Below, in pieces: positions 28,053-60,477 of a stretch of 64,000 bases of DNA. The stretch is from Salinigranum marinum (GTDB lineage: Archaea > Halobacteriota > Halobacteria > Halobacteriales > Haloferacaceae), in assembly GCF_024228675.1 (NCBI RefSeq), contig NZ_CP100461.1:2725398-2789397 (forward strand), written 5' to 3'. The stretch's first letter is position 1. Every line of letters starts with the position of its first letter. Below the pieces are notes generated by a model. The model saw nothing but the letters and a program-made list of their open reading frames with translations. It was not told the origin of the DNA and ran no database searches. The translations under genes and the position numbers were made by a program.

Positions 28053-29087
28053 ATGCAACGTAAAAAAACGTTCAACGGAATCCTCCGACGCTTTAGTGTA
28101 GCTACAGTGGTACTGTTGGTCGTTCTGAGCGTCCCGGTGGGGACCGCGCTAGCTGACTATCGAGAAATTGAGAATAACGGGTTCAAAAGTGAGACTGCGA
28201 TAGAAGACGTTACCGATTTGAGACAGGTCCAGGGCCCGAACGGCGAAATACCAGAGAAACCTGAGAAGCCAGAGAAACCCGAAAAACCGGAGAAGCCAGA
28301 GAAGCCAGAGAAACCCGAGAAGCCAGAGAAACCTGAAAAACCGGAGAAGCCAGACAAGCCAGAGAAACCTGAAAAACCGGAGAAGCCAGACAAGCCAGAG
28401 AAACCCGAAAAACCGGAGAAGCCAGACAAGCCCGAGAAGCCAGAGAAACCCGAAAAACCGGAGAAGCCAGACAAGCCCGAGAAGCCAGAGAAACCCGAAA
28501 AACCGGAGAAACCTGAGAAGCCAGAGAAACCTGAAAAACCAGACAAGCCCGAGAAGCCAGAGAAGCCAGAGAAACCTGAAAAACCGGAGAAGCCAGACAA
28601 GCCCGAGAAGCCAGAGAAACCCGAAAAACCGGAGAAACCTGAGAAGCCAGAGAAACCTGAAAAACCAGACAAGCCAGAGAAGCCAGAGAAGCCAGAGAAA
28701 CCTGAAAAACCTGAAAAACCAGACAAGCCCGAGAAGCCAGGAGAGGACGAGGGCGACGACTTCGATCAGGCGACGCCGATCACGCTCGGAGTCACACAGG
28801 AGGCCACACTCGAAGCGGGCGACGTCGACGTCTTCAGTGTCGATGCCACGGCCGGGACCGTGATCAGAGCCGAGTACGAGTACGACTTCCACGGCCCGGT
28901 GGACGTGACGGTGTACGGCCCGAACCGGCAGGTGATCGACTCGGAACGGATCAGTGGCGAGTCGTCCGGCGAACTAGTGCTGACCGCACCGAGGGACGGT
29001 ACCTACTACCTCGAGGTGGCCGGGGTCCAGCAGTCGACCGGATCCTACGCCGTGACGCTGACCGAAGTGAGTTCGGCGGCAGCGTAG
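28053..29087 (+). CDS. Secreted protein with 54 Pro-Glu/Asp-Lys triplets and a PPC-like domain
   Basis: 344 residues. The N-terminal 34 residues are a signal peptide (twin-basic start, hydrophobic core VVLLVVLSVPVGTALA). Residues 67-229 are 54 tandem triplets Pro-(Glu/Asp)-Lys with Asp at every fourth to eighth triplet. The C-terminal 115 residues are a beta-sandwich resembling the pre-peptidase C-terminal (PPC) domain (AGDVDVFSVDATAGT, DGTYYLEVAG). The triplet arm would be an extended rod with balanced charge carrying an outside binding domain. The repeat DNA and upstream region are far more AT-rich than neighbours, suggesting recent acquisition or expansion. Confidence 0.88.
   Translation: MQRKKTFNGILRRFSVATVVLLVVLSVPVGTALADYREIENNGFKSETAIEDVTDLRQVQGPNGEIPEKPEKPEKPEKPEKPEKPEKPEKPEKPEKPEKPDKPEKPEKPEKPDKPEKPEKPEKPDKPEKPEKPEKPEKPDKPEKPEKPEKPEKPEKPEKPEKPDKPEKPEKPEKPEKPEKPDKPEKPEKPEKPEKPEKPEKPEKPDKPEKPEKPEKPEKPEKPDKPEKPGEDEGDDFDQATPITLGVTQEATLEAGDVDVFSVDATAGTVIRAEYEYDFHGPVDVTVYGPNRQVIDSERISGESSGELVLTAPRDGTYYLEVAGVQQSTGSYAVTLTEVSSAAA
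28251..28739 (+). repeat. 9-bp coding repeat, 54 units with higher-order periods
   Basis: 54 units of ccNgaNaaR encoding Pro-Glu/Asp-Lys plus a terminal Pro codon. Codon choice (cca/ccc/cct/ccg, gag/gaa, gac, aag/aaa) varies in longer blocks of about 36-72 bp that recur, such as the stretch beginning ccagacaagcccgagaag. This points to growth by unequal exchange or slippage of multi-unit blocks. Confidence 0.95.
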
Positions 29088-37641: not shown

Positions 37642-37714
37642 GTCCGGGTTGGGGTAATGGTCATCCTTCAGCCTTGTGGAGGCTGAGACGCGGGTTCGAT
37701 TCTCGCACCCGGAC
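37642..37714 (+). tRNA. tRNA-His (GTG), encoded G-1, no CCA
   Basis: Folds fully: acceptor stem TCCGGGT (37643-37649) with ACCCGGA, an encoded G-1 (37642) pairing with discriminator C73 (37714), D-arm, anticodon stem CAGCC/GGCTG with loop TTGTGGA (anticodon GTG), and T-arm GCGGG/CTCGC with loop TTCGATT. G-1:C73 is the identity element of tRNA-His. CCA is not encoded. The gene lies 162 bp before an integrase, so its 3' end is the probable attachment site. Confidence 0.95.
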
Positions 37715-37876
37715 TTCCAATTCCTTCGGAAACTATGGTTTCAGAGCTTCTGCAGAGGAATCTGTATTCCACAGATTCACAAGAAGCTCTGTATGCCGAA
37801 AAGGCTGCCAAGAGTTCTCGAAGGCCATCCCCGCGCCGTCCGTCGATTCCGCCAAACTATCAGGACAAATACAGAT

Positions 37877-45893: not shown

Positions 45894-48800
45894 TCGAAAG
45901 ACCAACCGACAGACGGCCGACGAGATCACCGAGGGACAAAGTCTCCACGAACGGTTCCAGCAAGAGCTGGAAGATGACATCGCCGAATTGAACAATGCCC
46001 AGCTCGGTCGACTCGACCGACTCCGAGATTTCATCGCCGACGGTCTCGTCGATGTACGTGTACGGAATCCCGAGCAGGGCTATTTCCACGCCAAGGGCGC
46101 ATGCTTCCGGGGCGTCGTCGACGACCCGAGCATCCGAGAGGGAGACACCGACCGCCGAGCCAGTGTCACGATCGTTGGATCGTCCAACTTCTCACAGAGC
46201 GGCCAACGCCACAACATCGAGCTCAATCTCACGAGCCAAGAACGCGGTGACGTCGAGGCCTTCGAGGAGTGGTACGACAATCAGTGGGCCAACGCCGAGG
46301 GCTTCAGCGAGGAGATCGTCCAGCTCATCGAGGACAGTGATCGGTATCAGGAGTGGAAGGAACGGAAAGAGCAGGGAGCCGATGACGAGGAGACACAGGC
46401 GACTGTCGGAACGTACATCGAACCGTTCGAGATGTACAAGCTCCTCGCGTACGACGAACTGAGCGGCAACGTTGGAACGCGTGACAGCCCTCTCTACTAC
46501 TTCCAAGCGCTCGGCTATGAGAGCGCGAAAGAGAAGCTCTCGCGCTACGATGGCTGTATCATCTCGGACTCGGTCGGCCTCGGGAAGTCCTTCATCGGGA
46601 GTGAGCTGCTCTACGACTACCGGCAACAAGGTGACCGATGCCTACTCATCGTCCCGGCCAACCTGACCGACCAGTGGCGCGACCTCCTGCAGGACGCGAC
46701 CGACGAGGACGGGAATCTGTACTTCGGGCTGGACGTCGATGGGACGCATCTCGACGTCATGAGTATCAGCAAGTTCCAGAATCTCTCGTACGAGGCGGTG
46801 CAGGAACTGAACGATGCGTTCGACGTGGTGCTAATCGACGAGGCCCACCGATTCCGCAACTCCGGTCGATGGCGACCGAATCCCGACCACGATGACGACT
46901 ACAAGGGGACGCGTCGTCACGCCAATCTCCGGCTGCTCCGCAATCAGACGATGATCATGCTGACTGCGACGCCAATCAACAACTCCGCGACCGACTTGAA
47001 GAATCTTATCGGGTTGTTCACCAGCGCGGAAGAGCTGATGAACAAGGCCTCACTGGACTTCTCGGCGTTCGACAACTACATCGAGAAGTCAGAGCAACGC
47101 AAGCGAATTGCAGCAGGGAAAGAGGAAGTCACCGACGAAGAGCAACAGAAACTGACCGAGCAGCTGCAGCGCCACTCGGCAGAAATCTCTGAGATTCTGA
47201 ACGATGTGATGGTGCTTCGGACACGTAAGCACGTCAAGGAGACGATCAAGGACGACGAGGACTTCGAGATGAGCTTCAAGCCCCCCACGCTCTCCAAGGA
47301 GCAGTACAGTCTGCCGCCAGCCTACCAACCCATCTATCGGATGCTCCCCGACGTGATGGACGCGCTCCACCTCCCGCACATCACGATCCGAAACCCGCAG
47401 GCAGGCGGGACGCTGAAGGCACTCTATAAGTTGAACCTTCTGAAGCGACTGGAGTCTTCGACGTACGCGTTCGTGCAGTCGATTCAGACGCTCCACGAGA
47501 GCGAGCGCGCACTACTGGGATTCCTCGATGGGCTCCCCGACGAGGAAGACATAGACGTGTTGCGGGCCGTTCAGGACGACGACGCGTCGGCGACGATCGA
47601 CGACTTCGTCGAGGGCGCAGATGCTGCGGAGGACTTGGAGCAGTCACTCGAGGAGTTCGGGTTCGACACCGGGGCACTCCGCGCAGATGGTGGCGATGAT
47701 GACCGAGGTGACCAGCTCGAACTCGCGGACGCGACCGTCGGTGAAGTGAAGCAGTACATCCGCGAAGACTTGACGCTACTCGCGTACTTCCTCTCGCGGT
47801 TTATCGGTCGGGTCGCCGAGGACACGGGCGGGGTGGCCGATGCCGAGGTTGAGCTAGAGCAGTGGCTGGCCGAGCATGGGGCGGCCGTCCTCCCGGACGT
47901 GCCCGAAGACGACCCGAACCCGACGCTCTACCCGAGCAGTGATCTGTCGGAGGCTGACACAGCCACGCTCGACTTCTACGAGGCGGTGTTTGCACTCCGT
48001 GCGTTCCGTGACCCCAAAATCGACCGGTTGACCGAGGTGCTGAACGGCCACCAACAGAAAGTTCTCGTCTTCACCCAGTACCGAGCGACCGCAGACTACG
48101 TCCACCGCACGCTGATTGAGGATCCCGACTCGCCGTTGACCGATGCAAACAGTGCCGTGGTGAAGGGAGGGGACGAGAACAAACAGGACATCATCAAGCG
48201 GTTCGCGCCCGAGGCATCTGGCTATCAACGAACGCTCGCGGAGAGTGACGAGACAGAGCTGGAGTACGTCGTCGCCACGGACACGCTCAGCGAGGGGGTC
48301 AATCTGCAGGACATCGGAGTCGTCGTCAACTACGACCTCCCGTGGAATCCGATGCGGATCGTCCAGCGGGTCGGTCGCATCGACCGCATCGGGTCGACGG
48401 CCGACAAGCACGTCCACAACTTCTATCCGGACGGAGACATCGAGGCGGCGATCAAGCTACTGGAGCGGCTTCAGGCGAAGATCGACGACATCGCGCTGAT
48501 CGTCGGGAAGGAGAACAATATCCTCGATCCGAACGAGGACGCCGTGTTGGAGCGGGCCGGCGTCGAGACACAGAAGACCATCGGGGAACTGGAGGTCGAA
48601 GAGATCGAACGATCGCTCCGTCAGTCACGCGAAGTGGACGACTACAACGAGCTGGACGACACCTCGAAGAATCCACTCCTCCGAAACGCCGGGAGCGACG
48701 AGAGCGCGGCGTTCGAGCGATACCTGCTCAAGCAGGAACTCGACGAGGATTACGACCTCGAAGCGGACGACTTCGAGTTCGCCGAGGACTACTTCGACGA

Positions 48801-49515
48801 CAGTCCGGGCGAGCGCGAAATGCTGTACACGAACGCCGTGGATCACGACTCCGGCCCACGACCGGGCGTGTTCGGGCTGGCGCATCTCTGGTTCGAGGAT
48901 GAGGAGACCGGTGAGACCGAACCCGCACCGCTGGGACGCGTGCGTCGCGCGTTCTACTACAAGCCGTTCTCAGGGGAGGTCAAGGAGCGACCAGTTCGGC
49001 ACTTGGGCATCGAACCGAACACGGTCGGCGAACCAGTCGAGGGCAACACTGACTCGGTGCTGTCGAACCGAGGTGTAATAGAAGAGCATCTGGAAGCCCG
49101 ACTCGAAGCCATCCGTGAGGGGCAGGTCGGAGCGGCGTTCAAACAGGGCGAACAGCTCTCGAAGGAACAGGAGACCATACTGGACTTCGTGAGCCACTAC
49201 TTCGTGCCGAACTACGGTGACGGGAGCGCTCCCCACGACAACCACGAAACACTCGGTGAGTGGGCCACTGCGCTCCACGACCGACTGAACGAGGTGAAGC
49301 TGGCCAACACGGACGAGGATCGAATTCTCAGGGAGACGTTCCGACATCACCCCGAGTACGACTCGTTCACCAAGTGGCCACCCGAGGAGTTCCTCGCCGA
49401 ACTCGACGCGTTCCTCGAAGAGAACATCGAGGCCTCGTCAGAGTATCAGGATACCCTCGTCGGCGAAAGTTCGGTTCAGGCACGTCTCGTCTGTTGGGGT
49501 GTCGTCGGTCGGTAG

Positions 49516-50163
49516 TCACTCCCGACGCTCGAAATACATCTCGCCGTAGTTCTCTCGACCGGGGCCGGTGTAGTAGAACCCCTCCAGAACATCTTGTGGC
49601 CCATTGTGCTTGAGGGACAGGTCAGCAGTACCGTCGTGTGATGCCATCGAAGGTTCGGTGTCTGCCCCGGGTTTGTTCCCGTATTGGTACGTCAAACTCG
49701 GCCACCGACCATCCTTGGTTAGCACCGTCGCACCGGTGCTGTCTGATTCGGAATTGTCTGTGGAGAGATGGATGCCGATTTCTCGCCACGTTTGCTCGAT
49801 GTGTAGCGACGCTGCAACTCGTTGCATATCTGCCTCGGGAGCGTTCGACTCGTGGAGTGCTGACTCCGGAATGTCACCGCCATACGAAGTCATGATGTAG
49901 CCATCCCACTCTCCAGAGAAATCCGGCGATTTGGAGGCACCGGTTACACGAGAGATCTTCGTCTTCCACACCTTCTGGCTGAAACCCTTCGAGAGTATTG
50001 TGAATGCGACACCCCACGAGATCGTACCACCTGCGAGGGCTGGGACACTACTCGCAAGCAGAGATGTTGCTTGACCGATCCAGACAATCAAAAACCACGA
50101 GACGACTCCCAGAAGGCCGTAAACCACGATTCTGTTGTCGTTGTCGGTCGAATACGTGTGCAT
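49516..50163 (-). CDS. cap15: Cap15-type CBASS membrane effector
   Basis: 215 residues from the ATG at 50163 (MHTYSTDNDNRIVVYGLLGV). Two N-terminal membrane helices (about 11-29 and 40-58) are followed by a beta-rich domain opening with PDFSGEWDGYI (residue 80 on). This is the 2TM plus beta-barrel layout of Cap15, the effector that binds the cyclic nucleotide and disrupts the inner membrane. It starts 4 bp after the stop of the second CD-NTase, in one operon. Confidence 0.85.
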   Translation of the reverse strand: MHTYSTDNDNRIVVYGLLGVVSWFLIVWIGQATSLLASSVPALAGGTISWGVAFTILSKGFSQKVWKTKISRVTGASKSPDFSGEWDGYIMTSYGGDIPESALHESNAPEADMQRVAASLHIEQTWREIGIHLSTDNSESDSTGATVLTKDGRWPSLTYQYGNKPGADTEPSMASHDGTADLSLKHNGPQDVLEGFYYTGPGRENYGEMYFERRE

Positions 50164-50167
50164 CAGA

Positions 50168-51064
50168 CTAATCCTCCTCGTAGAGGGTGCGAGCTGCTCT
50201 GACGAACTCTTCCGCTTGGTCGGTGTTCCACTGTGTCGATTTCTCACCGAAGAGCGGGCTCATTCCGTGTTGCACCGTGTAGTCCGGAAATCCCCCCTCA
50301 GCTGCTGACTCAAGCTCTTCGAAGACGCCTTCGATCCGGTCTCGGATGTCCCCATGGGCGATAGTGGACACCTCCACGTTCGAGAGAAGGCACTCGACGA
50401 AGTACGAGGGGGCATCCTCTTTCTCGATGGTACCGTTCGCTACGAGTGTGTTCCGGAAGTTCTTGAGAACCCGAACGGTCGACTTGTAGTTGCCGGCGCA
50501 CCAGCCGTTGTATTGCTCGCCCATTATCCGGTGCCGCCGAGGGAAGTTCACCACCTTCGTCCCTTCGGCAGTCCAGAACACGATGCCCTTCATATGGTTC
50601 CCGGACTGCCGAGGCCAGAACCGTCGGTACTGGAGACACGGAACCACGTCGGCACCGAGTGGGAGGTCTTTAGAATCCACTTCGATGGCTTTGTCGCCCC
50701 GTTCGACACTTCGGGTACCGTACTGTGCCTGAAGGGTTCGATAGACACCCTCGGCATGCTCCTCGAACATCTGCCGTGGATTTTGGGTCGGAGCGTGTTC
50801 GGCCGAGGTTTCGGGTGTGTCCGAGAAGTCGGCGTGGTACTTGTCTGTCCGGATGACTAGGATATCTACGTCTCCGGAATCGTACACCATCGTCGTGTTC
50901 CGATATGATCCTTGGAGATAGGTGGCGAACTCAAGCCCGTCGCTGACACCCTCCAGACGCCCCTCTTCGAGTTCGTCCCGAATTGCGCGCTGTGTGTCTC
51001 GCGCTTCGTCTTGATCAGCCGTTTCGGCCTTCGTCCACCGCTCCAGTTTCCTGCGCTCGATCAT
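50168..51064 (-). CDS. CD-NTase 2 (cGAS/DncV-like nucleotidyltransferase)
   Basis: 298 residues from the ATG at 51064 (MIERRKLERWTKAETADQDE). The nucleotidyltransferase signature GS (52-53) with D65 and D67 in SGDVDILV, and D139 in GADVVPC, form the metal site. Helical C-terminal domain. In CBASS this enzyme makes a cyclic oligonucleotide after phage detection. Its ATG overlaps the stop of the first CD-NTase by four bases. It is closely related in layout to the first CD-NTase but only part of the sequence matches. Confidence 0.9.
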   Translation of the reverse strand: MIERRKLERWTKAETADQDEARDTQRAIRDELEEGRLEGVSDGLEFATYLQGSYRNTTMVYDSGDVDILVIRTDKYHADFSDTPETSAEHAPTQNPRQMFEEHAEGVYRTLQAQYGTRSVERGDKAIEVDSKDLPLGADVVPCLQYRRFWPRQSGNHMKGIVFWTAEGTKVVNFPRRHRIMGEQYNGWCAGNYKSTVRVLKNFRNTLVANGTIEKEDAPSYFVECLLSNVEVSTIAHGDIRDRIEGVFEELESAAEGGFPDYTVQHGMSPLFGEKSTQWNTDQAEEFVRAARTLYEED

Positions 51065-52008
51065 GTGAAGAGACGGCGATTGTGTTGGTCGTACCAGTCG
51101 TTCCACATCGTTCCGAGGTGGGTGAGCATCGTCATGGCCGAGTCGACGTCCCACTGGGTGTTGCTGGTGCCGAACAGGGGTTCCATCTCGGACACCTGAT
51201 CGAACGTCGTTAGGTCGGTGCTGTCGGCTTGGAGATGGTCGAGAATCTCCTCGAACCGGTCGCTTCGCTTCGACCGCCGTAGGATGCGCTCGGGGACGTT
51301 GTAGATGAGGCACTCGATGAAGTATGATGGAGCATCGATGCGGTACGGGGACTCCCACTTCTCGTTGAAGTAGTCGCGTGCGTTCTTGAAGATCCGAACC
51401 GTCTCTTTGAAGTTCGCGTGTTGCTCCGTCCCGTTCTGGTAGTGCATCTTCGGGAAGTTGACGATGCGCTCGGTGCTGTGCCGAGGACTGAATGCCATCC
51501 CGTGGTCGATGTCCGGTTCTCCATTCGATGGGTACGACCGGTAGATTCGGTAGTCTCGACAGGGCACTACGTCAACATCGACTGGCAGTGGCCCGTCGTT
51601 GATCTCGATGGCCTTCCCGTCCCACACCACCGGCTTCGATGTCGTGCTGTTGAAGCGGGTTTTCAGGGTGTTGAACACGTCCTTGCGGAAGTCTCGATAC
51701 GTGTAGTCTGCATCTGTGGTGTCGCGATCGTACCGGGCTTGTTCCTCGGAGTCGAGGTTCGACGTATCGGCCAGCCACGCCGATTCGAGTTTGACGACGA
51801 CGTCGACGTCACTCGATCCGTAGGTGTGGGTGTCGTTCTTGTATGACCCCTGCAGGAACGTATCGAACTCGATGTCGTCAGGTAGTGACGACCGATCCAT
51901 CTCGAGAGCGTTGATGATGCGCGTACGTGCAGTCGCCGACCCGGCATCCGCTCCTGTGCCCTTCCAGTCGTCGAACTTGGAGTTCGGAATACTCACCGGC
52001 AGGAGCAC
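51061..52008 (-). CDS. CD-NTase 1 (cGAS/DncV-like nucleotidyltransferase)
   Basis: 315 residues from a GTG at 52008 (start choice uncertain). The signature GS (54-55) with D67 and D69 in SSDVDVVV, and PVDVDVVPC with D144/D146, define the catalytic triad. Shares FLQGSYKN-type motif and NFPKMHYQNG with the second enzyme (NFPRRHRIMG there), suggesting an old duplication. It is the first gene of the CBASS operon and is followed by the second CD-NTase and Cap15. Confidence 0.88.
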   Translation of the reverse strand: MLLPVSIPNSKFDDWKGTGADAGSATARTRIINALEMDRSSLPDDIEFDTFLQGSYKNDTHTYGSSDVDVVVKLESAWLADTSNLDSEEQARYDRDTTDADYTYRDFRKDVFNTLKTRFNSTTSKPVVWDGKAIEINDGPLPVDVDVVPCRDYRIYRSYPSNGEPDIDHGMAFSPRHSTERIVNFPKMHYQNGTEQHANFKETVRIFKNARDYFNEKWESPYRIDAPSYFIECLIYNVPERILRRSKRSDRFEEILDHLQADSTDLTTFDQVSEMEPLFGTSNTQWDVDSAMTMLTHLGTMWNDWYDQHNRRLFT

Positions 52009-53528: not shown

Positions 53529-54646
53529 GTGATTAAGACGAATCTTTACCAGTAAGATACGGCCAGATGTTTGGTTCGGTGATTGCGCTCAGTCCTCGTG
53601 GAATGTAGTCTTTCAGCGTCGAGAGATCTGGAATAAGACGGTACTTGAACCACTCCTGCAGCTGGTCCCAGCAGCCTTCGACTGCGTTCAATTCGGGGAG
53701 TTTTGACGGAAAGTACCAGACGTCGAGATCGTCACCGCGGAGGCACGCGACCGAACTGTCTCCGACAGTTTCGGTCGCTCGGTCTCCGCTGACGTGCTCC
53801 CAGAGATCTCGCGCCCAGAAGTAGCCTGCCCGGTCAAGAAACACCACTAACTCGTCACCGAAGCGCTGTTTCAACGCCTCTAACAGTCGAATCCCGTGTT
53901 TCCGTGTGAGATTCTCTTCTGTCCAGCAGAAGAAGCTGTCACCGTCGTCGGTGACAGCGCCCAGCACTGTCACCGACTTCCAAGAAGTTGCAGTCTCTAT
54001 CGTCGGATTCGAGCCGATCGGGAACCAGCCACGCCGCTGGACGGTTCCGACGTGTTTGGTAAACTGGTCGACGACAACGACCGTTTTTTCACTCAGTTCG
54101 GGCCGTTTTTTTCGACTGTCTCCTGGAATTCAGCCTTCTCCTCAGGATCTGCCTCATGGTGTTGAGGCCGTGCTGTCCGCAAGGACAGCCCGGCCTCTCT
54201 CAACAACTCGTAGGCGTAGTTCTCGTGGTATTCAACACCGTACTCCTCTTTGACGTGGTGAAGCAGGAGCTTGGCTGACCACGCTTGCTGATCGTAGCCG
54301 AGTTCAGTTGGCGGCTGTTGCAACTGTTCGAACAGCTGCTCACGGTCTTGTCCCTCGATCTTTGCTGGGCCTCCTGGGCGAGGAGCGTCGTAAGGAGCTT
54401 GCTCGATCGGTTCTTCCTCGAACCGATCAAGCCAGTTGCGGATCGTTTTCTCGACGACGCCGTGGCGGTCAGCCAGCGTCTCCAGTTGATCGCCCTGCTT
54501 GCGCCCGATCGCCGCGAGAACACGTTCTCGCGGCTTCCCTTCGTCTATCTGCTCTTTGAGCTCGTAGAGTTCCTCAAGCGTAATCTCATCGAGCCGACCC
54601 ATTACCAACTCTATTATGTCGACCGGTAAATAACCTCCTTAATCAC
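53529..54646 (-). mobile_element. IS630-family element (about 1118 bp)
   Basis: Both ends begin gtgattaag within imperfect inverted repeats of about 26 bp (tttacc is shared further in), each preceded by TA (53527-53528 and 54647-54648), the IS630 target. It encodes a transposase with a -1 frameshift. If these are the exact borders, excision plus one TA removes 1120 bp, which would leave a one-base shift; alternative borders 53529-54639 would restore the frame. The exact ends are therefore uncertain. Confidence 0.8.
53533..54608 (-). CDS. IS630-family transposase (two frames, -1 shift)
   Basis: OrfA (54608 to 54093, 171 residues) has the HTH region (LADRHGVVEKTIRNWLDRFE). OrfB (to 53533) carries the DDE part: VVVVDQFTKH, VVFLDRAGYFWARDL and LPELNAVEGCWDQLQEWFKY. 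The frames overlap at a run of seven A (54106-54112 on the plus strand as T7), consistent with programmed -1 slippage as used by IS630 elements. Confidence 0.85.
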
Positions 54647-57080
54647 TATGAAAGATGCCCTTGTTCTCGAAGCCGATGAGGTTCTCCACGTCGGTGTGAT
54701 TCAGTAAGTGCATCCGGAGGTCTTTGCCCATCACTCCACCGAAGATGGTACCGGGAAGAAGGAGACTCACCTTCACACCGTCTCGAGAGAGCTTGAAGAC
54801 TCGCTCCAGAAAGAGAGCTGACAGCTCGTTCTTCGTCGGCATCGTGCGACCACCGACCACCGGCGACTGGAGTTTGTAGGTGTCCCCCTTGGTGAAGAAG
54901 TCCGCTCGGGTCTCCATCGAGTCCTGATACGCTTCCCACTCTTGTGCGATGTCAGGCTTGGAAAGCAGATCCTCCATCACCTCATCCTTCTCCTCCGAGG
55001 GATACATGCGGAACTGCTCGTCGTACCGGATGAAGAAGTCGTCACGGTTCGCGTAGAGCATATCCCACGGCGGGTTCCCGATGAACACGTCGAAGCCGCC
55101 CTGCTCGAACACGTCGGCGAACTCTAACGGCCAGTGGAAGGGCGACCACTCTCGGAGTTCCTCGATAGTGATGTCGTCGAAGCCCGCATCTTGGAACTCT
55201 CCTCGGAGGATGTCGTCGAACTTCTCACGATGCTCTTCGATCCGAGCTTCTGCCTCTTTCCGCCACTTCTGTGCCTCAGCACTCGTCTCGGCACGCTTGT
55301 GTTTCTTGATGGCCTCCTTGACGTCCTCGAAACGTGCTTTTCTCTCCCACGCGTCTAGCTCGCTGTCCCCGTCTTCGTTGCTCTCGATGACCGCATCCAC
55401 CTGACCGATGAGGCTGTTCCCCTGTCGGATGTTGAAATCGATGTTCGGCAGTGGCTCAACCTCACTTGGCTCGTCTTCGATATCGGCGACCATCGAGAGC
55501 CACAGGCGGAGCTTGCAGATTTCGACAGCACCCTCGTCGATATCGACCCCGTACAGGTTGTTCAGGATGGCCGAGCGCTTTGCGTAGAGGGAGGTTCCTC
55601 CTCTCCCTGTCTCGATCTCCTCCAGTTCGTCACGCGTCTTGTTCTCCAGCTCCCAGCCCTTCCCCTCGGCGTCGAGCTGCTGGAAGAACTCGATGCACTG
55701 CATATAGATGTCCAGCAGCACCTCCTGTGCGGCGAGCAGGAACGCCCCACTCCCGACCGCCGGGTCGAGGACGCGCATCTCCGTCAGCACGTCGTGATAC
55801 AGCGTTTCGACGTGACGCGTCTGGACGTTCTCGGTCGGAACCTGCGCTGTGACTGCTCCACCGTCTGCGAGGGCCTCTGCACCGGTATCAGCGTCCACGG
55901 CGGAGAAGCCGAACACGTCGTCGATCTCCTCGTACTCGGCGTCGACAGCCTCGTTGAGCTGGTCGAGAAGGTACGGGTGGATCGTCCGCCGGGCCATGAA
56001 CCCGGTGATCTCCTCGGGCGTGTAGTACGCCCCCATCTCCTTTTGGTTGACCGTCTGCTCGAAGATGTGGCCGAGGATGGCCGGCGAGAGGTTCTTTGGG
56101 TCGACGATGTCGAGCCGTTCGTCCACGTTCCAGTTCCAGTCCGAGAGAAAGTCGAGGATCTCGCCGAACAGTTCGTTGGTGCGCTCCGACGAGTCGCCCA
56201 GCCGTGGGTCGTCGAACTCCTCCTCAACCGGATTCTTCGAGAACAGGCCACCGTTCAGGTACGGGAGACTCCCGAAGTCGGGGTTCTGCTTCCCCTCGGC
56301 GAGCATCTCGAAGAAGAGCGGATGGTAGAAGTCGTCGTACACGTCGCCACCCTCGGCGACGACGTCCTCGTGCTTGTCGTGGAGGTACTCCACGTCGCGG
56401 TCGAGCAGGCGTTTCTCTTGGATGAAGTAGAGGAAGATCATCCGGTCGAGAACGACCTGCACGTACCGCTGCTTGGCGTCGCCTCGGTCGTCGGGGATGC
56501 CGGCGACCTCCTGAACGAGGTCGGTGCGCAGTTGCTCGAACTGCTGGTAGAACTCCTTGACCACCTGCTTGGTGTCGTAGAGCGTGTCCTGAATTGCCTC
56601 GACCGAGCCATACTCGATGGCGTTGAGCTTCTGCAGGACGGTGTTCTTCTCGCCGCTCTCGCTGGTCATCTGCGTCTTCGTGAACGAGAGCTTCTGGTGC
56701 TTGATGCGCCCGTGCTGTTGCCCCTCCCAGCTCCGGATACGCGTGAGGAAGGTGAACTCCTCATAGTCGTTGGTGGCCACGAGGTTCGTCCTGCGGTTCC
56801 GATTGTCGGGCTTGAACTCCGATGCCGATTCGCCCGGGCCAGCCTCGACGAGGACGATGAACTCCGTGTCGGTGAGCTGGAGGACGAGTTCGTTCTCCTC
56901 ACCGAGGTTCGGTCGCTTTTTCAATCCTCGCTTCTGGAAAGATGTCGCAATATCGCTGAGAGAATCCCAGTTCCTGATATCGTCCGCAGTGATAGACTGG
57001 CGTGTCACGACACGGGAGTTTCGGAGGGAACAAAATAAATCCAAGTCACGAATGACAGGGTGGCGGAGATGCGTGGCACC

Positions 57081-59359: not shown

Positions 59360-59749
59360 ATGGGTCAGTCGGACGACCACGAATTCACGACCAAGCTCTG
59401 GCCACGAGGAGGAAGTCAGGCCACTACCATCCCCCCACGGCTCCTCGCGTACACCCAAGCCCCGACTGGAGACGACGCCGAAGTGTGGTGGTTCTTCGAA
59501 GAAGCCACCAACGACGTCTATGTCGAGTTCCACCGGGAAGACGATCCTGACCCCGGACAATTCGTCTATCGAACGAGCCTCGACACGCGCGGGAAGAACA
59601 GCCACGCGACGACTGTGCCGAAGGACATCCGTATCCACTTCGAGGCACCTGTCGGCGAGAACGCAGTCGTGAACTGGAGATTCAGTCTCGGCAACGCACG
59701 CGTCTATGCAACCCCCACCGCTTCCCGTGAGCGGGGTGATGAGCGATGA
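59360..59749 (+). CDS. Protein with two AbrB-like swapped-hairpin domains
   Basis: 129 residues. Two similar halves: about 9-55 (TTKLWPRGGSQATTIPPRLL) and about 66-112 (YRTSLDTRGKNSHATTVPKD), each like an AbrB/SpoVT DNA-binding hairpin. A tandem pair in one chain would make a pseudo-dimer. The stop overlaps the start of the recombinase (ATGA), so they form one operon. Confidence 0.7.
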   Translation: MGQSDDHEFTTKLWPRGGSQATTIPPRLLAYTQAPTGDDAEVWWFFEEATNDVYVEFHREDDPDPGQFVYRTSLDTRGKNSHATTVPKDIRIHFEAPVGENAVVNWRFSLGNARVYATPTASRERGDER

Positions 59750-60477
59750 GCGAACGACAAACTGCTCGGGCCTACGTTCGTCTCTCCGACTACTCGAGTC
59801 GAAGCATCGAGGGACAGATTGAGGACTGCGAGGCGTACTGCGACCGCAACAGCTTCCATCTCGATCAGATCTACAACGAGGGCTACAATGCAAGCGGTTG
59901 GGACGAGTCCCGAGAGGAGTACCAACAGATGCTCACAGATGCAGAAGAAGGAGAGTTCGACGTCCTCGTCGTTCGGGACGGTTCACGACTTGGACGCGAC
60001 CACCGAGAGCGGATCCGGAGATTCTTCGACCTCAACGAGTGGAGTATCGAGTTCCATACCGTCGACCGTGGCCACGTGAACGCCGAGAAGCCTGCAGACT
60101 TCCTCATGGAGGTGTTCCGAGCGTTCTCGGACGACCACGGGAAACGCGGTGAGGTGGAAAGGCTGGAAGCCGAGAAGGAACGCCGGAGAGAACTCGGCTA
60201 CTACTCGAAGGAACCACCCACCGGACTCGCATACGACCGACAGAAACACTATTTGACCCGAGGAGACGGATTTGAGGAGGTCATCGATGTCATTGAGATG
60301 CGAGAGGGGGGTGCGACATATGACGAGATGGAACAATCCGCACCGTTCTCTCGGAGCACCATCTCGAAGTTGCTCACGCGTCGTGAGAAGTACAGAGCCG
60401 TCGCCGAAGGTGGGAAGCTCGGTCACAAACTCGAAGTAGTCTGGTCGGAGGGCGACCACGAGACGACCGACGACTGA
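59746..60477 (+). CDS. Serine recombinase (resolvase/invertase type)
   Basis: 243 residues. The catalytic domain (about 5-130) has the active-site Ser14 in VRLSDYSSRSIEGQ and the motif VVRDGSRLGRDHRERIRRFF. A C-terminal HTH-like region (SRSTISKLLTRREKYRA) replaces the large recombinase domain of bigger integrases. It could invert or resolve DNA. The AbrB-like partner overlapping it is unusual and may control it. Confidence 0.9.
   Translation: MSERQTARAYVRLSDYSSRSIEGQIEDCEAYCDRNSFHLDQIYNEGYNASGWDESREEYQQMLTDAEEGEFDVLVVRDGSRLGRDHRERIRRFFDLNEWSIEFHTVDRGHVNAEKPADFLMEVFRAFSDDHGKRGEVERLEAEKERRRELGYYSKEPPTGLAYDRQKHYLTRGDGFEEVIDVIEMREGGATYDEMEQSAPFSRSTISKLLTRREKYRAVAEGGKLGHKLEVVWSEGDHETTDD

Follow-up and report, generated by a model that had tools for sequence, protein, structure and literature searches.

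An orphan haloarchaeal protein with 54 tandem Pro-acid-Lys triplets and a C-terminal PPC domain: a candidate polyproline-II spacer

The window examined here, namely the whole 64-kb stretch of DNA that was analyzed (G000:C1:2725398-2789397), lies in the 4.9-Mb, haloarchaeal-type genome of Salinigranum marinum, and its open reading frame at 28053-29087 (+) is translated into a protein of 344 amino acids. This protein is composed of a signal-peptide-like N-terminus, an uninterrupted array of triplets, and a C-terminal PPC domain; its features are as follows, with the basis of each in parentheses.

28053..29087, + strand: whole open reading frame of the putatively exported (PEK)54-PPC protein, 344 residues (translation; syntenic ortholog L007:1498-2337(-) in genome G002)
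28053..28154, + strand: predicted signal peptide, residues 1-34, MQRKK...VGTALA, with predicted cleavage before D35 (hydropathy; A-x-A/D-Y site kept in the ortholog; judged by eye)
28155..28250, + strand: short mature N-terminal segment, residues 35-66, opening with the conserved DYxEIxNNxF (alignment of the two orthologs)
28251..28736, + strand: 54 tandem 9-bp units encoding P-E/D-K, with 36-, 45-, and 126-bp blocks and variation at third codon positions only (Tandem Repeats Finder; comparison of units)
28737..29084, + strand: PPC domain region, residues 229-344 (Pfam match 257-324), predicted as an eight-stranded beta sandwich (PF04151 at 30.1 bits; AlphaFold2 pLDDT 82; best Foldseek match 5sv5)

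The array spans residues 67-229 and consists of exactly 54 P-[E/D]-K triplets, of which 46 are PEK and 8 PDK, with a closing P, 163 residues in all; the count and coordinates in the original prediction proved exact on translation. With 54 Lys residues against 54 Asp and Glu residues, the net charge of the array is 0; indeed, 54 of the 57 Lys residues of the protein sit in the array and none in the PPC part, while Lys makes up 2.1% of the residues in six neighboring genes. Proline at every third residue is known to favor a polyproline-II (PPII) helix with three residues per turn, and this spacing, as in an XPZ-type rod, was found in all of the 54 triplets. A collagen-like (Gly-X-Y)n protein was ruled out, as the array is without any glycine. 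Based upon the single sequence, AlphaFold gave the repeat as a low-confidence coil (pLDDT of ~60), which weighs neither for nor against PPII. The sequence search of the array against PDB returned low-complexity matches only, for example to the Pro-Asn/Asp tail of the V8 protease from staphylococci. In our literature search, furthermore, no paper containing “PEKPEK” described a PEK-repeat protein of this kind.

At the DNA level, Tandem Repeats Finder detected the array at periods of 36, 45, and 126 bp. The 54 nine-base units occur in nine spellings, and with one letter for each spelling the array was parsed by eye as AHAFDGAE / ACDB / ACDB / AFDBE / AFDBE / AFIHACBEGACDBE / AFIHACBGGACCBE; the identity between units peaks at lags of 5, 14, and 19 units. 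Because this parse and the lag peaks match the detected periods, the array has grown via duplication of 36-, 45-, and 126-bp blocks, and the higher-order blocks that had been proposed in the repeat DNA are thus real. Positions 1, 2, 4, 5, 7, and 8 are invariant across all 54 units, which differ from one another at third codon positions only. The observed states of the units call for six substitutions or more, and six would all fall at third positions by chance with a probability of ~(1/3)^6 = 0.0014, which is our rough estimate with mutation bias ignored. Such variation would be predicted under conservation of the protein-level triplet. In the antisense Ser-Gly-Phe frame, nonetheless, the same positions are also third positions and the changes are synonymous or nearly so; the pattern therefore argues for a constraint on the triplet period but does not by itself prove the PEK frame. 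It is the in-frame signal peptide and PPC domain, together with the ortholog, that identify PEK as the real frame. The antisense open reading frames at 28149-28892 (-) and 28157-28726 (-) were also considered as genes and rejected for want of supporting evidence; their openness over the repeat follows from the 9-bp unit, which lacks a stop codon in the frames concerned.

The AT-rich codon use that was previously described for this protein is chiefly that of proline, of which the codons CCA/CCT account for 35 of 54 in the array versus 6 of 104 in the neighbors (Fisher p=2e-15); no clear difference was found for lysine (AAA, 27/54 versus 13/43; p=0.06) or for glutamate (p=0.7). GC3 is low in the N-terminal part (0.55) and the repeat (0.54) and normal in the PPC part (0.83), and the ortholog split in the same way gives 0.43, 0.54, and 0.84, respectively.

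The PPC-like domain that had been predicted behind the rod was confirmed as a match to PF04151, which scored 26.7 bits with the whole protein and 30.1 bits with the C-terminal part against the Pfam gathering cut-off of 25.9 bits; the ortholog scores 18.7 bits and is under that cut-off. An AlphaFold2 model of the PPC part, built from six sequences, had a mean pLDDT of 82 and a pTM of 0.76, and its top match in Foldseek was 5sv5, the PPC domain of a Bacillus collagenase (TM 0.70/0.77, prob 1.00), followed by the collagen-binding domains (CBD) of ColG and ColH and by p24 GOLD domains. The model thus assigns the C-terminal domain to the PPC/CBD beta-sandwich fold, while the PPC part had no match in PDB by sequence. 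Several secreted proteases have PPC domains that bind or swell collagen, and others have PPC domains that do not (review, PMC11294657). In contrast to these PPC-bearing proteases, which it resembles in the Pfam match and the predicted fold, the protein in the window has no peptidase domain; Pfam gives only PPC and a weak GOLD-type match, leaving PPC as the sole folded domain.

The N-terminal hydrophobic core reaches 2.41 on the Kyte-Doolittle scale over 19 residues, and an A-x-A/D cleavage-type site is aligned in both orthologs; from these two features, judged by eye, we infer that the protein is exported. After the signal peptide, there is no transmembrane segment (hydropathy maximum of 0.86 over 19 residues), and neither a lipobox nor a C-terminal sorting motif such as PGF-CTERM was seen by eye in either ortholog. 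The proposal of a surface stalk thus finds no anchor in either species; a stalk would have to rely on a partner not seen here or on a signal peptide that stays uncleaved, and either a cell-bound stalk or a released protein is compatible with the sequence.

Among 170 genomes of the family, a close relative was found only in G002, a member of the same genus, where a 279-residue protein with 63% identity in the PPC part is encoded at the same site. In both species, the gene lies between a DUF7091/nucleotidyltransferase pair and a gene for an endonuclease/exonuclease/phosphatase protein. The other two of the four species in the genus, each represented by one genome, have the same neighbors with 98 bp and 279 bp between them and no tblastn trace of the gene, which is hence dispensable. 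In a tree of seven neighboring proteins, the four species formed two pairs, G000 plus G003 and G001 plus G002 (support 1.0; 47 informative sites versus 8 and 7), and each pair therefore has one carrier of the gene. The dS of the PPC part (0.52) is equal to that of the flanks (0.37-0.65). Given the species tree, the shared syntenic site, and the flank-like dS, we favor a single ancestral gene that would have descended vertically and been lost twice; horizontal gain in two species is disfavored by the same site and dS. A phage or plasmid origin was also rejected: the PPC part has no relative in phages or viral contigs, and the whole protein has none in plasmids. The dN/dS of the PPC part is ~0.5 versus ~0.1-0.3 in the flanking genes, suggesting mild constraint on this part.

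The ortholog shares the start of the mature N-terminus, D-Y-x-E-I-x-N-N-x-F, but its array is shorter and less regular. It has 32 triplets with a closing P, and the repeat length thus differs between species, in line with the earlier idea that it changes. While proline is kept at 33 of 33 positions, an acid (E) is at the second place in 30 of 32 triplets and K at the third place in only 16 of 32, so that the proline register is the fixed feature and the charge balance is species-specific. The description of the array as a charge-balanced polymer accordingly stands for S. marinum but does not extend to the ortholog, of which the array has a net charge of -19. What persists between the two species is the three-residue spacing of proline that marks a PPII rod.

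The array is not a chance occurrence, because the PEKx4 pattern, with 51 occurrences in its own genome, is confined to this one open reading frame and PEKx5 is confined to the genus (2 of 391 Halobacteria genomes). Longer P-acid-x patterns, of eight or more, were found in 9 of 145 haloarchaeal genomes, although some of these matches are probably out of frame, and several of the array proteins are clearly exported or membrane-linked; unrelated viral contigs, too, carry tracts of PEK or PDK. Three haloarchaeal proteins are comparable in their long arrays with proline at every third residue, but their partner domains are unrelated to PPC. One (L068, genome G373) is an FG-GAP protein that has a long P-D/E-T (PDTPET) rod and ends, unlike the protein in the window, in a hydrophobic C-terminal segment like an archaeal surface anchor. 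Another (L069:1330-2823, genome G368) has a signal-like N-terminus, a long PDK/PGK/PNNPGK array, a weakly hydrophobic stretch, and two ArsR-like winged-helix (HTH) domains; it may be a regulator of transcription whose proline rod lies outside the cell. These two share export-type features with the S. marinum protein. The third (L072, genome G208) is a probable surface protein with ~29 consecutive, strongly negative Pro-Glu-Glu triplets near the C-terminus.

Haloarchaea commonly combine a PPC domain with a Thr/Pro-rich linker. We noticed a small family of exported PPC proteins in several genera (L004, L008, L023, L024, L026, and L027), which have a signal of the twin-arginine type, a tail rich in Thr/Pro, and a GYGEYGYGG-like motif conserved at the C-terminus. 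Members such as L004 of the same S. marinum genome, L023, L024, L026, and L027 resemble the protein in the window in combining a single PPC domain with a signal peptide and a single low-complexity linker; the linker, however, follows PPC and is (TP)n or T-rich, and the signal and the GYGEYGYGG tail further set them apart, with PPC identities of ~26-31%.

Taken individually, the parts of the protein are of known kinds, and the whole is an ordinary but tidy orphan protein. The array resembles two known proline-rich regions. The beta protein (BAC) of group B streptococci is anchored by sortase, and TonB is anchored in the inner membrane and has a linker in Glu-Pro and Lys-Pro blocks besides the TonB C-terminal domain. 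The proline-rich region of the beta protein is reported to be PPII and surface-exposed in the title of Areschoug 2002a, as cited in PMC8013792, and other domains of this protein bind IgA, factor H, and CEACAM (PMC8013792). This XPZ region is, like our array, a long, periodic, exported region with proline at every third position and charged residues between, although the beta protein is bacterial and has no domains in common with the protein in the window; the NCBIfam beta-protein model gave the array a weak, low-complexity match of 38 bits, far below the cut-off of 1700. The array would most likely work like the XPZ region by analogy and not by homology. The linker of TonB, described as a stiff PPII spacer (PMC10907165), is likewise charged and proline-periodic, again a likeness of form.

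From the proline periodicity and these likenesses, we consider it somewhat probable (about 0.55) that the array is an exported PPII rod, serving as a stiff, salt-tolerant spacer that presents the C-terminal PPC binding domain. The rod would hold the PPC domain away from whatever is contacted by the short N-terminal segment, and the PPC domain may bind a polymer such as a glycan, the S-layer, or an exoprotein. With a turn about every three residues, one face of the helix would carry the prolines, another the acids, and the third the lysines. A rise of ~0.31 nm per residue would give a rod of ~50 nm in S. marinum and ~30 nm in the sister species. Duplication and loss of the 36-126 bp blocks would lengthen and shorten it, with the proline register under selection and the charge of the third residue drifting between species. 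Set against the spacer are the missing cell anchor and the missing gene in two of the four species, and unless the rod reading holds, the protein would be an ordinary accessory exported protein. If it does hold, the two orthologs would provide a natural pair (54/32 triplets and charge 0/-19) for separating the proline register, charge, and length at molar salt, and a protein period of three residues would have been kept while the DNA was reshuffled in blocks of 36-126 bp.

Alternatively, the array might be a neutral or weakly selected by-product of slippage, i.e., a flexible and dispensable tail between the signal peptide and PPC with no function as a rod. The two gene losses, the recent block duplications, the unconserved charge pattern, and the independent rise of (P-E/D-K)n tracts in the viral contigs would all be consistent with this, but the third-position-only variation in the 54 units and the unbroken prolines of the ortholog argue for a constraint on the triplet, and we regard a pure by-product as rather unlikely. 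It is improbable that the array itself is the functional material, namely a neutral polyampholyte, hydrated even in molar salt, that is released as an extracellular polymer and fixed to a matrix by PPC. While the neutrality, the strictly regular E-K spacing, the very high Lys content in a low-lysine proteome, and the absence of an anchor fit such a polymer, half of the lysines are replaced in the negatively charged array of the ortholog, and neutrality is hence not maintained between species. Slightly more speculative is a (PEK)54 zwitterionic polymer tuned to molar salt, which would be released to coat the cell or matrix, with its length set by block duplication and PPC serving to dock it; lysine would then be the means of coping with salt, a departure from the usual acidic surface of haloarchaea. 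Least credible is the view that the protein accompanies a secreted protease or is what is left of one, its PPC domain being a subtilase copy that was fused to a signal peptide and linker. The best-matching PPC relative beyond the genus does belong to a subtilisin-like protein (L022 of G092, 37% identity), and GC3 changes between the N-terminal and PPC parts of both orthologs, but no protease gene is adjacent and many haloarchaeal PPC proteins are not proteases. Compared with these, the PPII spacer remains our preferred reading.

Elsewhere in the window, GC falls from ~0.68 to ~0.57 downstream of a tRNA-His gene (37642-37715), and no repeat of the 3' end of this tRNA gene was found inside the 64-kb window. 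The low-GC stretch (37642-64000) is a probable defense island, holding an SNF2/HKD-type helicase (46432-49515), a type IIG/DrmMI-like methylase (54639-56669), and a serine resolvase (59746-60477). It also has a CBASS-like cluster at 49516-51900, in which a Cap15-type 2TM cyclic-nucleotide effector (PF18153, 96 bits) is followed by two tandem oligonucleotide cyclases; the cyclases are 33% identical to each other, both have GS...DVD and a later D-V-V-P motif, and it is unusual for a single effector to be accompanied by two intact cyclases.
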